From the NCBI GenBank assembly GCA_006384855.1, contig VCJN01002361.1:1-64000 (forward strand): a DNA stretch of 64,000 nucleotides, read 5' to 3'. Source of the DNA: Tetraselmis striata (taxonomy: Eukaryota; Chlorophyta; Chlorodendrophyceae; Chlorodendrales; Chlorodendraceae). The translations under genes and the position numbers were made by a program. Position 1 is the stretch's first letter; each line of letters opens with the position of its first letter. The notes below the pieces were generated by a model that made no database searches, was not told the DNA's origin, and was given only the letters and a program-made list of their open reading frames with translations. Shown piece after piece: positions 18,277 to 59,720 of this stretch.

Positions 18277-18735
18277 CGACGAGTGAAGTACAACAAGACT
18301 CCGCAGCGGTAGTGGCCTTTCCGGTGCCCCCTTCGTGACCTGGCGCTACCCCTTCTTCGTCAATCTACCTCTCTCTCCGTACGCTCATCACTGGCCGAAA
18401 CCAGACTCAACTTTGAAACGATCTAAACTCGATTATGGGGTTTCCTCCTTTCCTAACCGCTTTTCCGGCCACCGTTTGCTGCTAAGTGGCACGGGTTACT
18501 AGTTCACCCGTCGTTGCGCTCTTTTGGGCACATCACGAGTAGACATAAAAATAGCCGTAACAGCTGAGCCTGCGATATTCCACTTTTGCCGCGTTCTACG
18601 CAGCGCCATCCCTTCCTGACTCCGTTTTTCCTCCACGTTTTCACTTCACCTTCCCGCCAATTTCGGCTCTTGTCTGTGTGAAGCAACCTGCGCCACTTTT
18701 TGGGCAAAACCGGACTCAAATTCGAAACCCGGCTG
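18277..18735 (+). mobile_element. Solo 3' end of a DIRS-like element (same family as the 50.2-59.7 kb element)
   Basis: On the plus strand this segment is collinear with the minus-strand 3' end of the element at 50176-50650. It starts with the last codons of the recombinase frame (VQQDS…FPVP then TGA at about 18338). It continues through CCAGACTCAACTTTGAAAC, the repeat beginning GATCTAAACTCGATTATGGGGTTTCC, and CCAATTTCGGCTCTTG, and ends at GGCAAAACCGGACTCAAATTCGAAAC. It is clearly diverged from that copy. The rest of the element upstream is missing. Confidence 0.8.
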
Positions 18736-50175: not shown

Positions 50176-50503
50176 TTCAAGTTGAGTCTGGTTTTGCCAA
50201 AAATCTCGCGCAGGCTGTTTTACACGGTCAAGAGCCGAAATTGGCAGGATGGTTAAGTGAAAGCGTGGAGGGAAAACGGAGTCAGGGGGGGCGCTGCGTG
50301 GAACGCAGCGAAAACTGGAAGATGGCAGGCTCAGCTATTGTGGCTGCTTTTATGTCTACTCGTGCTGCACCCAAAAAGGGCGCAACGACAGGTGCACAGT
50401 TCCCGTACCACTGAGCAGCACTTGTAGCTGAAAAGCGGTTAGGTCAAGGGAGGAAACCCCATAAACTAGTTTAGATCATTTCAAGTTGAGTCTGGTTTTG
50501 CCA
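50176..50503 (-). repeat. 3' B1-A2-B2 repeat block of DIRS element B
   Basis: B1 50480-50503, A2 50292-50479, spacer of 92 bp, B2 50176-50199. The same block, diverged, forms the solo relic at 18.38-18.73 kb. Confidence 0.85.
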
Positions 50504-50556
50504 TTTATAAGCGAACGGAGAGAGCGGTGGATTGACGGAGAAGGGGTAGCGCCAAG

Positions 50557-51433
50557 TCAGGAAGAAGGCACCGGGAAGGCCACCTCTGCGGAGTCCTGTT
50601 GGACTTGGAAGTGGCGGAGGGGGGCGATGTGGCCGAAGAAGAACCATGCGCCAGGTGAAGGAAGAACGTTGGGGTCGATGTAGTCCAGAACGACGTCGGA
50701 GTTAGTGGCCCATCCACCTTGGTAGCGAATGTGGGACAATGGTACTCCGATGGCGTTAGCCGCAGACGCTGCTCCCTTGCGAAGGCTGTGTGAGGTCCAG
50801 GAAGTGCCGGCGGGGGGGGCAGCACCGACAAGACGGACGGCTGTAGACAGCCAGTCCGACATTGTAGCGGCATGCCAAGGTTTTTTTGACTGCTCGCTCG
50901 GGGTGACCGCCCAGAAGTTTGTTTCAGCCAAGGCAACAGTAACCAGGGGGACAGACTGTACTGTGTCGATGAAGTAGTGCACGAGACGTGCAATCGGGGG
51001 TGCTCTGCCACCGGAAGGAGAAGCACACGCAAGTCGTCGCGTCCCCGTCGTCCAGCGCGGCCTTTCTCGCGGTACACCGGACGACAGTGGCAGTGGTCGC
51101 CTCCAGCGGGCTGATGTTCTCGGAGTCGTGGCAGAACTCCGCGAACTGAGACAGTCTGCCGGCGTAGCTCTTGAGCGTCTGAGCGGTGAGGGAGCTGGAG
51201 AGCAGGTCGAGTGTCCGTTGTCCTAGCTCGTCCGAGCCGAAAGCGTCCTGCAGTCGAGATCGCAGTGAAGCAGCCCAGGGCGCGACAGCTTCGGGCTCGT
51301 CAATGACGTAAGTGCGTCGTTTTACCGACAGAGTTCCAGCGGTGCGACTACTGTTTGCAAAGTACTCGGCAGCATCGATTAGATTCCCGGCGGCTGGCCG
51401 GTAGTTGCTGGACGGGTTTGCAGTTAGTAGCAC
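50557..51433 (-). pseudogene. Tyrosine recombinase of DIRS element B
   Basis: Minus strand. An N-terminal part (51433-50924) has SLTAQTLKSYAGRLSQFAEFCHD, the core-binding domain signature. After a frame change near 51000 the catalytic part (50982-50557) has TSWTSHSLRKGAASAANAIGV (HxxR box), IRYQGGWATNSDVVLDYIDP (GGW and catalytic Tyr) and ends FQVQQDSAEVAFPVPSS. The catalytic residues of the C-terminal half are all present. Only the phase change prevents a single protein, so this copy was active relatively recently. Confidence 0.82.
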
Positions 51434-51848: not shown

Positions 51849-52443
51849 TCACTCGTGCTCACCTTCGCGGCCACGCCCGCGTCCACCGCCACGTCCTCGT
51901 CCACGTCCGCGACCTGCAGCTGCTGCCGCCACCCGAGCAGTAGCGGTTGCTTTGGCGCTGCTGGCCACAGTCGCCTCGAAGATGCGACGCTCGTAGTCCC
52001 TCATGAGGTCCCCAAAAATCGCGGAACCCAGATGCTCAGACGCAGGCTGAAAGTGCTGAGCTCGCAGCACGTCCAGAACACCTTGGTTACCGTGTACACG
52101 CTTGACCTCATTAAGCCTCCGTAGGAAGGCGAAACGAAAACGAAATGCCTTGTCGATGGCTTCGGCGTGGTTCCGAGCTCTCGCGAGGTAGGGGGTGAAG
52201 TCCCGATTTGCAGCATGGACGTAAGGCAACAACTCGTCGAGAGCCACGAAAAAGTGCAGCCACGTGGGCGCCGAAACACGACATCCATAGATACTCCTCA
52301 TGGGCCGGCAGACGCCGGTCATCCTGCTTGAGGTATTCGTTCGTTAGGTCGGTGCTCAGGGGGAAGAGCCCAGGCACCCTGCTGACCGGTCGAACGGCCT
52401 CGTAACCAGACTCTGCTCTCTACATTAGTTCTGGCACCGCGAG
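51849..52443 (-). pseudogene. Gag-like protein of DIRS element B, C-terminal part
   Basis: Minus strand: GLFPLSTDLTNEYLKQDD, LPAHEEYLWMSCFGAHV, then after a phase change FFVALDELLPYVHAANRDFTPYLARARNHAEAIDKAFRFRFAFLRRL and a glycine/arginine-rich tail (RGRGRGRGGGRGRGR), probably nucleic-acid binding. The N-terminal part lies beyond the gypsy insertion at 59147-59416. Confidence 0.6.
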
Positions 52444-52854
52444 TGTTATACTCCATTTCCCTATAGCCATAATGTTCTGCTATACTAGCAGGTATAACCC
52501 CGCAAAGGTAGTACGACTACGCATCCGCGGAGTCGCTGTACATATTAGTATTGCGGGCGTAAATATTAGTAGTATAAGGCCGAGGACTGTTCTGGAATTC
52601 TCTAGAGTTCTCTGACTCAAGCCTTACGTGGCTAACACAGCACGGGTATCCCATGACACCCGGCTAACATAGCACAGGTATGACTATGACCTCGGCGGGT
52701 ATAAATACCACCTCGGACAAGTCTACTAGGTAGAATTCAGAGACGGAACTATAACCCAGGAACCCCTGTAACCAGAAGAGATTGGCCATACTTTCTAAAT
52801 CCTTCCGCTGCATCCTAAAGGGCCTAAAGAACAGGCTTAAGCTAGAGCCTAACA
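52444..52854 (+). repeat. 5' LTR of the gypsy element
   Basis: TG…CA, 411 bp. TATAAATA at 52700-52707 and TGTAA at 52767-52771 look like the promoter TATA box and the green-algal poly(A) signal, placing R between or just after them. Confidence 0.95.
52700..52707 (+). promoter_or_regulatory. TATA box in the 5' LTR
   Basis: TATAAATA in a GC-richer context, about 155 bp before the LTR end. The same site recurs at 58992-58999 in the 3' LTR. Confidence 0.65.
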
Positions 52855-52856
52855 CT

Positions 52857-52872
52857 TGGTTTCGGAGCTTAG
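52857..52872 (+). other. Putative primer binding site
   Basis: TGGTTTCGGAGCTTAG begins 2 nt after the 5' LTR. The TGG start pairs with a tRNA CCA end. The tRNA identity was not determined. Confidence 0.6.
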
Positions 52873-52893
52873 ACAGCGGTAAGCGACGTAAAG

Positions 52894-54054
52894 ATGGCTA
52901 CACCAGGAGAGACACCACCTGAGGATAGCGGAAGCTTTCCGGTAGCGGCCACTGCCGGCGAAGCACAGCCGATTCCGCTTGAAGGAGGTCAAGAGGGCAC
53001 GCAACCGACCCTCGTAACCATGATGAGCATGCTTCAACGACTAGCCGACCGAGTCGAGACTATGTCGACGGAGCAAGCGAGGATGCAAGATGTAGCGCAA
53101 GCTACAACGGCGGCAACGGCGGAGATTCGCCGCTTGGACGAGTACGTGCGACAAGGCTTCAGTCATTTCGACGACCGAGTGAACCGGAGCCGAGTTGTAG
53201 AGCAGCAGATGCGAGACCAGCTTCGTTCTGCCCGGACCAGCGACATGCCTGGGCTCATGCCGAGCGATGTGAAACCAGCGAAGATCGAGAAGCTATCGAC
53301 TACGAATATCGACGAGCTACGGAACTGGTTTCGTCATGCACGGGGTTACCTGAAATATCACAATGTAAACCCGGAGGAACCTCGTAGCGTGTACTGGGCA
53401 TCTGGCTATTTTCACGGACCTGTATCCAAGTGGTGGTACGCGCAAGTGGCGAGTACGCACGACGAAATTGGCGGCGGTTTTACCGGTATTACGCACATGG
53501 AGGCGGCACTAATCACCGAATTCTGTGGACGTACACCGGCGAAGCAAGCTCGTATCAATCTGGATCGCGCGACACAGCGGACTACAGTACAGAAGTACGC
53601 GAATTATTTCCGCGAGCAACTACTGGAGTTACCACATCGTCACGAGGAAGATAATGTACATGACTTCCAGCGCGGACTGAAACCCCATATTCGAAAGGAG
53701 GTTGCCCTGAAAAACCCTAAGACCCTGGCAGAAGCTGTACAGGCAGCCCTGGCTGTTGAAGCTGCGGAGCGGGAGACAGATGTGCACCGCGAGATCCGTC
53801 GCGAGCGCCTAAACATCATGGACGACGATGGCGACGACGACGAGCAGTACTACAGCAGTGCTGAGGGTGAGGCTACAGAACAAGAAGACGACCTGTTGAT
53901 GGCGCGGCGATTGACCGAGGAGGAGTTTGAGAGATTTAAGAAGGAAGGTCGCTGCTTTATCTGCAGGGCGAAAGGTCATGTTGCGTCCGCGTGCCCGAGC
54001 AAGAAGAAGAAGATTTCTGAATATCGACCCAGAAAGACCCGGCCGGGAAACTAA
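52894..54054 (+). CDS. gag: Gag protein of the gypsy element
   Basis: 386 codons. The N-terminal region is Pro/Gly/Glu-rich. A helical coiled-coil-like stretch (MMSMLQRLADRVETMSTEQARMQ) and the retrotransposon gag core follow (LRNWFRHARGYL, VYWASGYFHGPVSKWW, ITEFCGRTPAKQARINLDRATQ, FQRGLKPHIRKEVALKNPKTLAEAV). An acidic hinge (DDDGDDDEQYYSS) precedes a C-terminal CCHC zinc knuckle CFICRAKGHVASAC near residue 354 and a Lys-rich tail. The ATG follows the primer-binding-like site by about 20 nt. The last codons GGA AAC TAA form part of a -1 slippery heptamer. It builds the virus-like particle and packages element RNA. Confidence 0.95.
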   Translation: MATPGETPPEDSGSFPVAATAGEAQPIPLEGGQEGTQPTLVTMMSMLQRLADRVETMSTEQARMQDVAQATTAATAEIRRLDEYVRQGFSHFDDRVNRSRVVEQQMRDQLRSARTSDMPGLMPSDVKPAKIEKLSTTNIDELRNWFRHARGYLKYHNVNPEEPRSVYWASGYFHGPVSKWWYAQVASTHDEIGGGFTGITHMEAALITEFCGRTPAKQARINLDRATQRTTVQKYANYFREQLLELPHRHEEDNVHDFQRGLKPHIRKEVALKNPKTLAEAVQAALAVEAAERETDVHREIRRERLNIMDDDGDDDEQYYSSAEGEATEQEDDLLMARRLTEEEFERFKKEGRCFICRAKGHVASACPSKKKKISEYRPRKTRPGN

Positions 54055-57000
54055 GACGTGAGTCGGCCGCGCGCGGCGCGCGACAGGGTGAAGGACTGTC
54101 CCCTAAAACGGCTCGCGAGACTACAGAAGTACAGCCCTCGTATCCTCAAACGACATTGAGGCCTGATTTCCTCCACAAGGATTTCAGCGACTGGATGGTA
54201 CATCGCGAATTATTTCACGAGTACACGAAGAAATACGGACCCTGCGACCTGGACGGAGCTTGCGATAATGACGGCCTGAATTCTCAAGTTTCTGGTAGTT
54301 TTTGCTGTCCGACGCGCCCATTTCAGGAACAGGATCTCGGAGAATATCGGCGTATTTGGCTAAATGCCCCGTATGACCGAATTGAAGAATTTTTGGGCCA
54401 CTACCTTCGACAAAAGTTATTGCATCCGCATCTACGAGCAATTATTGTGGTCCCAAAATGGTCGCGTAAGCCGTGGTTTCGACTACTTAGAAATTTTCGT
54501 CTGGTGGATGAGTTGCCAGCGGAGACTTCTGTGTTTACGTGTCCAACGAACGATGGCATAGAAGGTGCGAGACAAGATGTTGGCCCCACTCGATGGGCGA
54601 CACAGATCTACGCTGACGATGGCGCCGGCGTACGGTTTCTACCGCAGCACCTGAGAACCCCACCGAAGCCTGAGTGGACGCACTCGAAGGTTCTAGTAAC
54701 CGATGGAAGACGAGTGCTTCTGACTGTAGAAGACAGCGGACTGATTTGGTTTCCGGAAGGCAAGCGCGGCGACACGGACGCGACGCCGGAGACAACAGCA
54801 GTACGACGATTACTCGAGCAAACTGGGTACCGGGTACAGGAGAGCAATCTACGGTACCTCGGCACTCAGCGGACGGGAGACAACCGGTGTCCCGTATACC
54901 TGTATCGCGTTCGTCGTAATACTGTACCTACGAAGACCCCTTTGAATCGTGCATTATGGACAACCTGGAAGAAATTATTGGAGGCACGAAGTACGGGTTA
55001 TCTGGAGACGGAGACAGTACGCTACCCACTACGGTACGAAAGCTTCGGCGAACAAATTGATGAATATGTCAACCGTAACGTCCGACTACCTGGCGAAGAC
55101 TCCACATCGCGTTTGTGCAACGTATCTTCACCGAGTGGTACCCGACTGCTGACTATTACTGGCGAATTGCGAGGACGACACTGTAAAATACTGGTGGACT
55201 CTGGTGCAACCGAAAATTTTGCGAGTACCGAATGGGTGCAATTGCATCAGTGCCCTACAGTATCCGGAGGAAAACACCGTATAAAACTGGCGAACGGCAG
55301 TATGAGTACCAGTACCAAACGGCTGAGGAGCGAAGTACTTACCGTAGGAGCTTTCGACTATAAATTGGACGCTATAGTTACAGACCTGGAGAAATTCGAC
55401 ATTATTCTCGGACAACCTTGGCTGGAAACAGTTAATCCTGACATCGACTGGACTGCTAAAATTATTAAACACCGGAAGACTGGACAACACATTGCTACAG
55501 CGGAACAGTATACAGTACCTACGACGGTTTACCACCTGGACGCGGCTAAGATGGCGAAGGAGCTGAGGAAAAGTCGCGGCGAGGAACTGTTTGCTGTTGC
55601 GGTACGCGAGGTGTTCGATGCGGTAGCTGAGCTGCGCACGGACCAGTCGACCGAGTGGACCGAGGAGCTCAAGGAGTCCCTTATGGAGTTTGCAGACATC
55701 ATCGCGGAGCCTACTGACCTGCCACCGGAGCGCGAGTTCGACTTTGAGATCAACCTGGAGAGTGATGAACCCCCCAAAGAACGAACGTACCGTATGTCAC
55801 CAGCGGAGTTGCAGGAGGTACGGTCACAACTGGAGGAATTGTTGGCAAAAGGGTGGATTCGTCCGTCCAAGTCAAACTACGGCGCCCCAATTTTATTTGT
55901 GCGTAAGAAAGACGGCACTCTGCGTATGTGTGTGGACTACCGTAAATTGAATGACCTTACGAAGAAAGACCGGACCCCGCTTCCTCGTATCGACGAATTA
56001 TTGGACTCATTGCATGGTGCGACTATTTTCAGTACTCTGGACCTGTACAAAGGCTACCATCAAGTACGAATTAAACCGGAAGACATCCACAAAACAGCGT
56101 TCCGGACACACTATGGACTCTACGAGTACTGTGTGTTACCTTTCGGCTTGACAAACGCCCCAGCTGGATTCCAGACTATGATGAACCGTGTTTTGAGCCC
56201 ATATCTCGGCAAATTCTGCGTGGTATACCTGGACGACGTGCTGATCTACAGCAAGACAGCTGAAGAGCATCTCGAGCACATCAGATTGGTGCTACGGGAG
56301 TTGCAACGACATCACTTGCATATCAAGCTGTCGAAGTGTTCGTTCGGCAGTACTAGCGTGGAGTTTTTGGGCCATATCGTCGAGGCAGGACAGATCAAGA
56401 TGGACCCCCGGAAGGTGGAAGCAGTTCAACAGTGGCCCGTGCCGAAGACAGTAAAGGACGTACGAGGTTTTCTCGGCCTTGCTGGCTATTACCGCAAGTT
56501 CATCCATAACTTCGCGGCTATTGCGGCGCCACTACATGACCTGACGAAGAATCAACCGGAGTTTGTGTGGACGCCTCGTGCTGATGCAGCGTTTCGTGCA
56601 TTAAAGGACGCAATGGTACGAGCACCTGTACTGAGTATACCGGACACATCTGCGGACGCCCGTTACACATTGTACACAGATGCTTCTGGATTTGCAGTGG
56701 GAGCTGTGCTGCTGCAAGATCAAGGCTCAGGACTTCGACCTGTCGCGTACCATGCACGCAAGATGAACAAACACGAAGTTCACTACCCGGTACATGAGCA
56801 AGAGTTGTTAGCGGTTCGTGATGCACTCATCAAGTTCCGATGCTACCTTGATGGAGCGGCGGGCTTTACGGTCATCACCGACCATGACACGCTACGGCAC
56901 TTCTTTCGCCAACGCGATTTGTCGACGCGGCAAGTACGATGGCTGCAAGTGTTTGCGCCTTACCAACGACATATGGACATCGTCTACAAACGAGGAGCTG

Positions 57001-58640
57001 CCAATCATGCGGACGCCCTCTCTCGGCGACCCGACTTGAAGGATGCGCTACAGAAGCTAGATCTGCTGAACAACTGGTCAGAAGACGAGGCTGACTGCGA
57101 AATAAATTCAGTTTTATTTGCTATGGAGTCGCGACTACAGGCGGACAACAAATTTTACGACGAAATCAAGACCGCATATGACTCCGACGAGTACCTGAAA
57201 TCGCGGAAGGCTTTACCATCCTGGCTAGTACGTCACAGTAATGGTCTACTGTACGCCTACGGCTCACGACTTTACGTACCAAATGTGGCGGACCTGCGAC
57301 AACGAGCACTGTACGAACTACATGACGCGCCTACTGCTGGACACCCAGGAGGACGACGACTACTGGCGCGTACTGTGGAACTGTACTGGTGGCCCCGTAT
57401 GAAACAGACTGTCACTAACTACGTGCGACGCTGCCCTACCTGTCAACGTACTAAGGCGGCCCGGCATAAGCCATACGGCTTACTTCAGCCCCATGACGTA
57501 CCGTCACGACCATTTGAGGTAATATCCCTGGATTTAATCACAGATCTTCCGGAGTGCCAGGGGTATGACTCAGTAGTGGTTTTCGTATGTCTACTGTCAA
57601 AGCGAGTAATTGTTGAGCCAACTACGAAGACAGTTACTGCTGAAGGCTTGGCGGAGATTATGCATCGCTCAGTTTTTCGTCATTTCGGCCTACCGGCTAA
57701 ACTCATCTCTGACCGAGACCCCAGATTTATGTCGGAATTCTGGCAAAATATGTTCAAGACCATGGGTACTAAGCTGAACATCTCTACAGCTTTTCATCCA
57801 GCAACCGATGGCCAGACGGAACGCACTAACCAAACTTGGGAGCAAGTGCTACGCTGCTACGTGCACCCCCTGCACGATGATTGGGTCAACCACCTCACCA
57901 ACGTGGAGTTTGCGATCAACGCTGCTCAGTCGACTTCGACTACTATGTCCCCTTTCAAGGCGACTTTGGGATTCGAGCCGACTACACCTGCTACTACTCA
58001 ACTCGCAACCGAGCCGACTCGAGCTCTTCCGGAACACGTCAAGTATGTACAGGAGCTTCATCGCTTCGCGCATGATTGCGTACTGGAGGCTCAAACTCGT
58101 ATGCAGACTGCAGCTAATCGTAAACGACTACCCGTACCATTCAAGACCGGCGACAGAGTTAAGCTGAAAGCGTCTCATCTGAAGTTTATTCAGCAACCCT
58201 GTGCTAAGCTACGCGATCGCTACGTGGGCCCCTTCGTCATTACAGAGCAGATCTCGCCAGTTGCTTTCCGATTGCAACTACCTGCGGGCGTACGAGTCCA
58301 CGACGTGGTGCACGCGAGTATGCTGGAAAAGTGGTATGACGACCCTGACCAACCGGCGAAGTCTGAACGAGTACCGATTGTCCACGACGCAAACCGATTC
58401 CATGTTCAGGACATACTCGATGTTGCCTTCAACAACAATGGCACTGGACTACTGTTTCGAGTGCGATGGGCGTTCCCGTACAACGTACCAAGCGAAGACA
58501 CCTGGGAGCCCCTACGCGGAGTCAAGCACCTGGACATTTTCCGGTCGTTCTTACTGTCTAAACCATACCGACAGTTTACTGAGAGCCCAGACTTCATTCG
58601 GTTCCGGAATCGCTACCCAAGCCGAGTACCTTCCGCCTGA
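54021..58640 (+). CDS. pol: Pol polyprotein of the gypsy element: methyltransferase-like, Nudix-like, protease, RT, RNase H, integrase, chromodomain
   Basis: One open frame entered by -1 frameshift; residues here are counted from a TTG at 54156 (1494 codons). Residues 1-125 resemble Dam-type N6-adenine methyltransferases (DWMVHRELF, CDLDGACD, WLNAPYDR at 68-75, AIIVVPKWSRKPWF), with NAPY in place of NPPY. Residues 175-260 are Nudix-like (KVLVTDGRRVLL, WFPEGKRG, ETTAVRRLLEQTGY, PVYLYRVR), with RRLLEQ where REUxEE is expected. Then come aspartic protease (VDSGA, Asp348), RT (YLDD at 691-694), RNase H (YTDASG, Asp842), integrase with HHCC finger and Asp1126, Asp1186, Glu1222, and a C-terminal chromodomain (about 1415-1480; FRVRW, DTWEPL). 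It stops with TGA at 58638-58640. All core catalytic residues are intact. Confidence 0.96.
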   Translation: MSTQKDPAGKLRRESAARGARQGEGLSPKTARETTEVQPSYPQTTLRPDFLHKDFSDWMVHRELFHEYTKKYGPCDLDGACDNDGLNSQVSGSFCCPTRPFQEQDLGEYRRIWLNAPYDRIEEFLGHYLRQKLLHPHLRAIIVVPKWSRKPWFRLLRNFRLVDELPAETSVFTCPTNDGIEGARQDVGPTRWATQIYADDGAGVRFLPQHLRTPPKPEWTHSKVLVTDGRRVLLTVEDSGLIWFPEGKRGDTDATPETTAVRRLLEQTGYRVQESNLRYLGTQRTGDNRCPVYLYRVRRNTVPTKTPLNRALWTTWKKLLEARSTGYLETETVRYPLRYESFGEQIDEYVNRNVRLPGEDSTSRLCNVSSPSGTRLLTITGELRGRHCKILVDSGATENFASTEWVQLHQCPTVSGGKHRIKLANGSMSTSTKRLRSEVLTVGAFDYKLDAIVTDLEKFDIILGQPWLETVNPDIDWTAKIIKHRKTGQHIATAEQYTVPTTVYHLDAAKMAKELRKSRGEELFAVAVREVFDAVAELRTDQSTEWTEELKESLMEFADIIAEPTDLPPEREFDFEINLESDEPPKERTYRMSPAELQEVRSQLEELLAKGWIRPSKSNYGAPILFVRKKDGTLRMCVDYRKLNDLTKKDRTPLPRIDELLDSLHGATIFSTLDLYKGYHQVRIKPEDIHKTAFRTHYGLYEYCVLPFGLTNAPAGFQTMMNRVLSPYLGKFCVVYLDDVLIYSKTAEEHLEHIRLVLRELQRHHLHIKLSKCSFGSTSVEFLGHIVEAGQIKMDPRKVEAVQQWPVPKTVKDVRGFLGLAGYYRKFIHNFAAIAAPLHDLTKNQPEFVWTPRADAAFRALKDAMVRAPVLSIPDTSADARYTLYTDASGFAVGAVLLQDQGSGLRPVAYHARKMNKHEVHYPVHEQELLAVRDALIKFRCYLDGAAGFTVITDHDTLRHFFRQRDLSTRQVRWLQVFAPYQRHMDIVYKRGAANHADALSRRPDLKDALQKLDLLNNWSEDEADCEINSVLFAMESRLQADNKFYDEIKTAYDSDEYLKSRKALPSWLVRHSNGLLYAYGSRLYVPNVADLRQRALYELHDAPTAGHPGGRRLLARTVELYWWPRMKQTVTNYVRRCPTCQRTKAARHKPYGLLQPHDVPSRPFEVISLDLITDLPECQGYDSVVVFVCLLSKRVIVEPTTKTVTAEGLAEIMHRSVFRHFGLPAKLISDRDPRFMSEFWQNMFKTMGTKLNISTAFHPATDGQTERTNQTWEQVLRCYVHPLHDDWVNHLTNVEFAINAAQSTSTTMSPFKATLGFEPTTPATTQLATEPTRALPEHVKYVQELHRFAHDCVLEAQTRMQTAANRKRLPVPFKTGDRVKLKASHLKFIQQPCAKLRDRYVGPFVITEQISPVAFRLQLPAGVRVHDVVHASMLEKWYDDPDQPAKSERVPIVHDANRFHVQDILDVAFNNNGTGLLFRVRWAFPYNVPSEDTWEPLRGVKHLDIFRSFLLSKPYRQFTESPDFIRFRNRYPSRVPSA
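54045..54051 (+). promoter_or_regulatory. Programmed -1 ribosomal frameshift site (GGGAAAC)
   Basis: G GGA AAC is in the correct register (gag codons GGA AAC, then TAA at 54052-54054). A -1 slip gives GGG AAA CTA and enters the pol frame, which is open from 54021 without an in-frame ATG near its start. A GC-rich stretch follows at once (GTCGGCCGCGCGCGGCGCGCG, about 54062-54082), able to fold into a stem, as expected for a stimulatory structure. The same heptamer is used by some retroviruses. Confidence 0.8.
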
Positions 58641-58722
58641 ACTTAAAAAAAAAAAAAATCAAGACCAAGACTGTAGTTTCCTGTAGTTCTGTGATGCCTG
58701 CACAGCGAGGACGCTTGTGCTT

Positions 58723-58735
58723 AAGGGGGAGAGAG
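58723..58735 (+). other. Polypurine tract
   Basis: AAGGGGGAGAGAG immediately upstream of the 3' LTR, the expected plus-strand priming site. An A13 run at about 58645 lies just after the pol stop. Confidence 0.85.
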
Positions 58736-59146
58736 TGTTATACTCCATTTCCCTATAGCCATAATGTTCTGCTATACTAGCAGGTATAACCCCGCAAAGG
58801 TAGTACGACTACGCATCCGCGGAGTCGCTGTACATATTAGTATTGCGGGCGTAAATATTAGTAGTATAAGGCCGAGGACTGTTCTGGAATTCTCTAGAGT
58901 TCTCTGACTCAAGCCTTACGTGGCTAACACAGCACGGGTATCCCATGACACCCGGCTAACATAGCACAGGTATGACTATGACCTCGGCGGGTATAAATAC
59001 CACCTCGGACAAGTCTACTAGGTAGAATTCAGAGACGGAACTATAACCCAGGAACCCCTGTAACCAGAAGAGATTGGCCATACTTTCTAAATCCTTCCGC
59101 TGCATCCTAAAGGGCCTAAAGAACAGGCTTAAGCTAGAGCCTAACA
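58736..59146 (+). repeat. 3' LTR of the gypsy element
   Basis: 411 bp, indistinguishable by eye from the 5' LTR. TATAAATA at 58992-58999 and TGTAA at 59059-59063. Confidence 0.95.
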
Positions 59147-59416
59147 GCGAGGTAGTCATCCTCGTCACTCACGGATTTTGCTCCGACACGGCCGCCTTGG
59201 GCTAGCTCTAGCAAGTTGGGGCGCTCTGCGGCTCCCCCGCTGCCTGTCGGCTGTCCCGCGATGCGCTGCCCGGAACCGGAACCATTTATGTGCTCCTTCT
59301 CCATCAACAACGCGCTCACGAGCCGTCAATTGGGCTATCGCAGTAGCCAACCCTCGCAGTTGTGCGTGTAGCGACTCGAGCGTCGGCTCAACGACGGGTT
59401 CTTCTCCATCTGGCAT
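59147..59416 (-). pseudogene. Gag-like protein of DIRS element B, N-terminal part
   Basis: Minus strand from ATG 59416: MPDGEEPVVEPTLESLHAQLRGLATAIAQL, a helical start. It then continues in another phase as GQPTGSGGAAERPNLLELAQGG and SVSDEDDYLA, running into the gypsy target duplication at 59147-59151. It is separated from its C-terminal part (ending 52443 side) by the 6.7-kb insertion. Confidence 0.6.
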
Positions 59417-59532: not shown

Positions 59533-59720
59533 CGCTGCGTGGAACGCAGCGAAAACTGGAAGATGGCAGGCTCAGCTGTTGTGGCTGCTTTTATGTCTAC
59601 TCATGCTGCACCCAAAAAGGGCGCAACGACAGGTGCCTAGTTCCCGTACCACTGAGCAGCACTTGTAGCTGAAAAGCGGTTAGGTCAATGGAGGAAACCC
59701 CATAAACTAGTTTAGATCAT
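59533..59720 (-). repeat. 5' A1 repeat of DIRS element B
   Basis: 188 bp, partner of 50292-50479. It starts (minus sense) at ATGATCTAAACTAG and includes the hairpin CGCTGCGTGGAACGCAGCG (59533-59551). Confidence 0.85.

Follow-up and report, generated by a model that had tools for sequence, protein, structure and literature searches.

A recently inserted Ty3/gypsy retrotransposon of Tetraselmis striata carries Dam-type and Nudix-fold domains at the start of Pol

Do a methyltransferase and a Nudix fold really stand at the start of Pol in a long terminal repeat (LTR) retrotransposon and, if so, what might they do there? The question is raised by an element in a stretch of 64,000 nucleotides from the green alga Tetraselmis striata (contig VCJN01002361.1, positions 1 to 64,000 of the forward strand; the whole stretch is called the window here), in whose pol frame a first-pass annotation, made from the letters alone, had noticed a Dam-like domain followed by a Nudix-like one. 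The element is a complete-looking LTR retrotransposon at 52439-59151, and its two LTRs are identical, so that its insertion is recent. Paired LTRs, a short target-site duplication, a Ty3-type capsid and the order protease (PR), reverse transcriptase (RT), RNase H (RH) and integrase (IN) with a DDE core place it in Ty3/gypsy, and the DDE integrase match and the position of Dam before the protease set it apart from DIRS and PAT elements. The best overall explanation, to which we give a probability of roughly 0.7, is a recent Ty3 element with Dam-type and Nudix-fold domains in Pol, working by the putative mechanism set out below.

Residues are numbered here from the TTG at 54156, which the first-pass annotation took as the start of pol. 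As it had described, 54156-58640 is one open frame (1494 codons); the TTG itself is merely the start given by the ORF lister, the frame being open from 54021 and overlapping gag. All the motifs quoted from it are found (CDLDGA, WLNAPY, VVPKWSRKPWF, WFPEGK, RRLLEQTGY), and both Pfam checks that it had proposed gave matches when isolated pieces were scored. PF05869 (Dam) matched residues 12-109 with 28.4 bits and E 1.5e-6 (164-residue piece), a borderline pass of the curated cut-off of 28.1, and PF00293 (NUDIX) matched residues 179-255 with 29.7 bits against 21.1 and E 7.5e-7, with 27.9 bits over 335 residues. The listed rows of a VIA structure search with a 335-residue model covered the Nudix part, and the Dam part was modelled and searched alone; its predicted structure has a methyltransferase fold, with phage N6-adenine methyltransferases named among the best matches. 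The Nudix piece is predicted to have the fold of the Nudix superfamily, its matches including mouse Syndesmos, the MUTYH C-terminal domain, Dcp2, RppH and NudC. The Dam-type domain had been drawn too short, at residues ~1-125: it continues beyond GPTRW (residues 143-147) and ends near residue 155-160. The protease had been placed correctly near residue 335, its Pfam matches beginning at residues 337-343. A search of PDB with alignment A5, whose best chain was Ty3 Gag-Pol, was not used: its signal lies in the RT sequence that P0001 and P0021 contribute, not in the Dam of the window.

Searches of a protein collection gave relatives (P0001, P0002-P0020 and P0021) that are 43-72% identical where they match. 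P0001 has the module in frame with protease and RT; some of P0002-P0020 are plainly decayed or truncated, and P0020 covers 15% of the query. Among the 21 members of alignment A3, Pfam (E up to 1) recognizes Dam in 14 and NUDIX in 3. The clearest Nudix match is that of P0003 (42.0 bits), whose Dam scores 25.0 bits, below the cut-off. In P0021, a Ty3-type Pol, a clear Dam (39.1 bits, motif NPPF) stands immediately before the protease, and there is no NUDIX match. No relative was confirmed in scans of IMG/VR or of bacterial and archaeal genomes.

The relatives also show which residues are kept, counting the window and only those members that cover each motif. Active N6-adenine methyltransferases have [DN]PP[YFW] at motif IV. 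DLD is present in 16/16 members, and motif IV reads NAP[YF] in 11 of 16, with HPPY, HPPR, NALF, IAQF and NAQF once each, which makes NAP[YF] the usual state among relatives and not a decay of the window copy. Three DIRS-like loci elsewhere in this genome carry NAPF as well, an argument for NAP[YF] being a variant that is tolerated. The persistence of DLD and of the motif IV Asn suggests a domain still able to bind S-adenosylmethionine (SAM) and perhaps to transfer methyl groups. The consensus box of Nudix hydrolases is Gx5Ex7REUxEExGU, from which the RRLLEQTGY of the window departs. In 13 members the R is kept in 12, the following E in two and the full REUxEE in one; at the EE, an acidic residue stands at the first position in 13/13 and at the second in 1/13. 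P0003, with RELFEETGY, keeps the RE..EE core and departs from the consensus before RE. The family of the window has kept the Nudix fold without the full box, P0003 being a better-preserved form. The earlier statement that key residues are altered is thus right for NAPY and RRLLEQ in the window, but NAP[YF] is usual in relatives and P0003 retains the RE..EE core.

The module is present in many copies in the genome itself. The assembly comprises 224 Mb in 2903 contigs, and with the module as query 120 of 1292 candidates were scored, the copy number being a lower bound. All 120 (at least 120 places) match at 97-100% identity, 114 of them stop-free, and a 1539-codon open frame like that of the window is listed for 48, of which 47 have no reported stop in the match. 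With P0003 as query, all 149 matches scored (of 911 candidates) fall at 69-72% identity and are taken as the family of the window; no closer P0003-type family was seen among them. Profile matches, predicted folds, all 120 scored places and the database relatives thus agree that both domains are real and in frame with pol, as first proposed, and neither of the outcomes that the first-pass annotation had named as refuting (no profile or fold match, no other in-frame copies) was seen. A one-off capture or misreading, by chance similarity of a linker or by a decaying insertion, could appeal to the weak similarity to solved Nudix proteins (a PDB sequence search with 335 residues gave weak Nudix matches only, best E 0.099), but it is contradicted by profile, fold, copies, relatives and the pattern of shared changes described next, and we regard it as scarcely credible.

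In order to look at selection, 52 copies (12 search loci and 40 further copies) were compared with the window, separating singletons from changes found in three or more copies and leaving out those in exactly two. In residues 1-320 the singletons comprise 44 nonsynonymous (N) and 31 synonymous (S) changes and the shared changes 5 N and 13 S (rough omega 0.52 vs 0.14). The counts for singletons and shared changes are 22 N (one a stop)/16 S and 3 N/8 S in RT, 13 N/12 S and 1 N/4 S in Dam (12-130), and 26 N/13 S and 4 N/7 S in Nudix (171-310), where the rough omega of shared changes is 0.22. This pattern across near-identical copies is consistent with purifying selection, and constraint seems to act on the whole module, least on its Nudix part. 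DLD is found in 52/52 copies, NAPY in 51/52 (one NAPF) and RRLLEQ in 51/52 (one RRLHEQ).

The position of the module at the junction with gag suggests how it would be expressed. Gag stops at 54054 and the pol frame lies in the -1 frame; the heptamer G GGA AAC is read in the gag frame with the stop TAA directly 3′ of it. GGGAAAC belongs to a known class of slippery -1 heptamers. Heptamer and gag stop are intact in 48 of the 52 other copies; of the remaining four, one retains the heptamer but not the stop, the aligned heptamer is short of letters in two, and the last is blank. Relatives, e.g., P0017 and P0018, resemble the element between the slip site and the Dam domain, and the similarity upstream of TTG 54156 supports translation from upstream of that codon. 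Frameshifting by -1 would yield a fusion Gag-Dam-Nudix-PR-RT-RH-IN, which would take Dam and Nudix, along with RT, into the virus-like particle. This architecture and mode of expression we hold to be highly probable.

Did the two domains arrive together? Dam-type domains occur elsewhere in the genome of T. striata, with at least 122 PF05869 matches (150 scored of 777 candidates), 18 of which were examined as loci, three of them (L053, L056, L057) seen on one strand and left unclassified. L054 is PAT-like, with Dam after RT-RH, and has the same Dam frame as L055, L058 and L063 and a frame related to that in L065. The DIRS-like loci comprise three with NPPF (L066, L067, L070) and three of RH-MT (methyltransferase) order with NAPF (L059, L068, L069). 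These PAT and DIRS assignments rest on domain order and recall rather than on an RT tree, and the only trace of a tyrosine recombinase is in L054, a Phage_int_SAM_1 match below threshold. A second, multi-copy Ty3/gypsy family (L060 at 1-2700, L061, L062; G000 contigs C31, C976, C444; at least 62 matches, 51 scored of 3184 candidates) has a Dam-type domain with NPVY before the protease and no NUDIX match; its Dam aligns with that of the window at 29% identity (E 5e-12) and its Pol is 38% identical to that of the window across 703 columns. We also observed that 696-codon frames, as at the place of L059, recur in many PF05869 matches of this genome, that L064 (534-1112, minus strand) is a stand-alone phage-like Dam ORF of 193 aa with NPPF, and that more 193-codon frames with PF05869 matches lie on other contigs.

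Twenty-one Dam domains were placed in a tree (166 columns), for which the program warns of long branches, and the internal order is unsure. The 11 Ty3 rows form one group (support 93/87) beside a group of DIRS and PAT rows (88/86), and the three phage or stand-alone rows are separated from these two groups (96/94). The Nudix-bearing rows fall together (97/94), beside P0019, whose ORF stops before the Nudix region. The phage locus L073 (ON489264.2, 444-1163) was left out, its annotated frame giving residues unlike Dam; the tblastn match falls within an annotated adenine methyltransferase CDS, of which the frame or the annotation may be off. Since Dam occurs without Nudix in P0021 and in the second Ty3 family, and the Ty3 Dams form one group beside DIRS/PAT, the two domains probably came separately, Dam being older and Nudix added later. 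The first-pass annotation, which had one element capture both modules, was right about their presence and too simple about their history. Dam would have been shared with or taken from DIRS/PAT-type retroelements, passed once and placed at the start of Pol, and Nudix would have been inserted later between Dam and protease. Entry of Dam and Nudix as a single unit would be compatible with the few Ty3 lineages in the tree and with the low support (74/43) of the branch that orders P0021 and the second family; it would require loss of Nudix in two Dam-only lineages on the Dam tree, and the DIRS/PAT-like stretches scanned (L054, L059, L065, L066) gave no NUDIX match, which makes it improbable.

As for function, the Dam-type domain would bind SAM and act on the adenine N6 of the element's own nucleic acid, most likely the new cDNA, and such a mark or protection could help the element copy to survive or to be expressed. 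Judged from sequence, N6-adenine methylation by this clade is close to an even bet, slightly on the doubtful side. The Nudix domain may first have served next to RT as a MutT-like nucleotide hydrolase and may now be, in the window copy, mostly a nucleotide- or nucleic-acid-binding or structural part; hydrolysis by this copy seems unlikely. A related alternative makes Nudix a cleaner of the nucleotide pool beside RT (8-oxo-dGTP or similar) and Dam a passenger. It is suggested by the intact R-E-L-F-E-E-T-G of P0003, whose best NCBIfam model is the MutT 8-oxo-dGTP diphosphatase (23.2 bits, far below the cut-off of 148), and by the retroelement dUTPase at the Pol N-terminus of PosPlaTy3-3 in the passages available (PMC2864245). 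RRLLEQ in the window and in nearly all copies, however, indicates a lineage transposing without the usual catalytic acids, and we consider this alternative unlikely. Even less probable, and indeed rather remote, is a module acting at the RNA 5′ end, which would combine a PCIF1-like adenosine methyltransferase fold with a decapping-type Nudix, Dcp2, RppH and NudC being among the matches; Gag-Pol would then mark, read or remove caps, sorting element RNA for packaging and reverse transcription. The cap-specific adenosine methyltransferase PCIF1, a structure match of the window Dam, is a much larger protein, and its match may reflect only the lack of a closer Dam-type structure among the compared chains.

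Several results weigh against the explanation that we prefer. The PF05869 score drops to 26.4 bits, below the cut-off, when all 335 residues are scored, the Dam piece has no match at E 1e-3 or better among solved structures, and the long frames of the second Ty3 family reach 23.0 and 24.9 bits, again below the cut-off; the tree grouping of the Ty3 Dams is not starred. Other members of A3 that reach the Nudix region, P0001 and P0012 among them, align across it yet have no NUDIX match in Pfam even at E 1. Shuffled sequences fold as well as the RNA 3′ of the heptamer (z 0.23, -0.24). The contrast between shared and single changes in residues 1-320 is modest (Fisher p 0.034, uncorrected for the other regions tested) and not significant for Dam (p 0.34) or Nudix (p 0.09) alone, and the four shared nonsynonymous changes of Nudix compare with 0 N/8 S in the protease and 0 N/5 S in RNase H. 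Sampling copies by protein match to the module favours few amino-acid changes, a bias from which the shared-versus-single contrast should suffer less. Finally, the NAPY of the window is unlike the motif IV of active enzymes and its Nudix box is short of two or more of the usual acids. From these last points one may argue that neither domain has catalytic activity and that both are retained in Gag-Pol only for binding or for structure, e.g., in RNA packaging, nucleic-acid chaperoning or chromatin contact, and the scarcity among relatives of the full R-E-x-x-E-E and of its last acid points the same way. Syndesmos and the MUTYH C-terminal domain, both among the fold matches, are Nudix folds that are not known to hydrolyse nucleotides. 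On the other side, the invariant DLD, the prevalence of NAP[YF], the NPPF of P0021 and the NAPF of the DIRS-like loci look like a working variant, and in all 13 members the first of the two EE positions is acidic. We regard two dead domains as a serious contender at somewhat less than even odds, and continue to prefer a Dam-type domain that acts on the element's nucleic acid.

The features of the element are collected in Table 1. Ty3_capsid (34.4 bits) and Retrotrans_gag exceed the Pfam cut-offs in Gag, where a CCHC knuckle stays under it (17.2 vs 20.8 bits). In Pol at least one Pfam model exceeds its cut-off for each of PR, RT, RH, IN zinc-binding domain, IN core and SH3-like domain (RVP_2 33.5, RVT_1 134.2, RT_RNaseH 102.1 and rve 33.1 bits).

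Table 1. Positions of element features in the window.
Feature	Position	Strand	Basis or remark
Target-site duplication GCGAG, left copy	52439..52443		
5′ LTR, 411 bp, TG...CA	52444..52854	+	same sequence as 3′ LTR
gag ORF, 386 aa	52894..54054	+	Pfam
pol open frame, 1539 codons	54021..58640	+	-1 vs gag, overlaps gag end
Candidate -1 frameshift heptamer G GGA AAC	54045..54051	+	abuts gag stop TAA
Dam-family (phage/DIRS-type N6-adenine methyltransferase) domain	54180..54635	+	motif IV NAPY; DLD replaces motif I
Nudix-fold domain, degenerate Nudix box RRLLEQTGY (residues 217-225)	54666..55085	+	Pfam match 54690-54920
Aspartic protease	55182..55466	+	RVP_2 match
Reverse transcriptase	55899..56381	+	Pfam
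RNase H	56658..56963	+	Pfam
Integrase zinc-binding domain and catalytic core (rve)	57291..57800	+	Pfam
Tf2-1-type SH3-like integrase C-terminal domain	58149..58334	+	Pfam
Possible chromodomain (PF00385) at integrase end	58398..58529	+	weak, under Pfam cut-off (15.7 vs 25.1 bits)
Polypurine tract GGGGGAGAGAG	58725..58735	+	by eye
3′ LTR, 411 bp	58736..59146	+	
Target-site duplication GCGAG, right copy	59147..59151		

Around the element, a 188-bp direct repeat (97% identical) has one copy on each side, at 50292-50479 and 59533-59720, and a related inverted stretch (82%) lies at 18420-18605. Minus-strand ORFs at 50505-51433 contain the residues HSLRKG...GGW and presumably resemble a broken tyrosine recombinase. 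Positions 441-1242 contain repeat units in tandem, spaced ~132 bp apart and 95-99% identical when the window is aligned with itself; no tRNA gene was found within the window.

Retroelements with nucleic-acid modifying enzymes are few and their benefit is unclear. Dam alone, Dam with an RE..EE-core Nudix and Dam with an altered Nudix, all in the same element type, amount to a natural experiment in which the gain of adenine methylation to a retroelement becomes a directly testable question. Among the papers listed, covered by titles, abstract openings and passages, with subscription journals mostly outside the search, we found no Nudix in an LTR retrotransposon, no Ty3 Pol that clearly contains Dam and no description, for this element class, of Dam then Nudix ahead of the usual Ty3 enzymes. 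Comparable cases, as far as the accessible text of each source goes, differ in enzyme or in layout. A Sola-type transposon has a protein with ParB and an N4/N6 methyltransferase (PMC12477816), and a figure of retroelement layouts labels a DNA N6-adenine-methyltransferase (PMC11673190). Phage N6-adenine methyltransferases give the window Dam weak tblastn matches besides the structural ones; two phage proteins are 27-28% identical to it over ~100 residues, stand alone and have NPPY. KnitGypsy-Dnmt3 of Klebsormidium also has a DNA methyltransferase within the Gypsy Pol ORF, with Ka/Ks under 0.2; this is, however, a cytosine-C5 Dnmt3, termed structurally unrelated to Dam-like enzymes, and Nudix is unmentioned in the text searched (PMC5890265). 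PosPlaTy3-3 captured a nucleotide-processing domain at the same end of Pol, a dUTPase instead of a Nudix, and the passages mention no methyltransferase. Orchid Gypsy elements likewise carry a captured nucleic-acid modification enzyme, an AlkBH5-like N6-methyladenosine demethylase, but as an eraser in a separate ORF (PMC9289625), whereas that of the window element is of the writer type and lies in Pol. In DIRS elements, which are arranged as RT-RH-MT and have a tyrosine recombinase but neither protease nor DDE integrase (PMC3266345, PMC3783388), the function of the methyltransferase was called unknown in a 2011 survey (PMC3266345). The DIRS/PAT domain belongs to the same Pfam family as the window Dam and has a similar extended layout, the PAT-like copy of the same genome being 24% identical to it (pairwise E 6e-13); it stands behind RT-RH, whereas that of the window stands at the N-terminus of a Ty3 Pol and is followed by Nudix.
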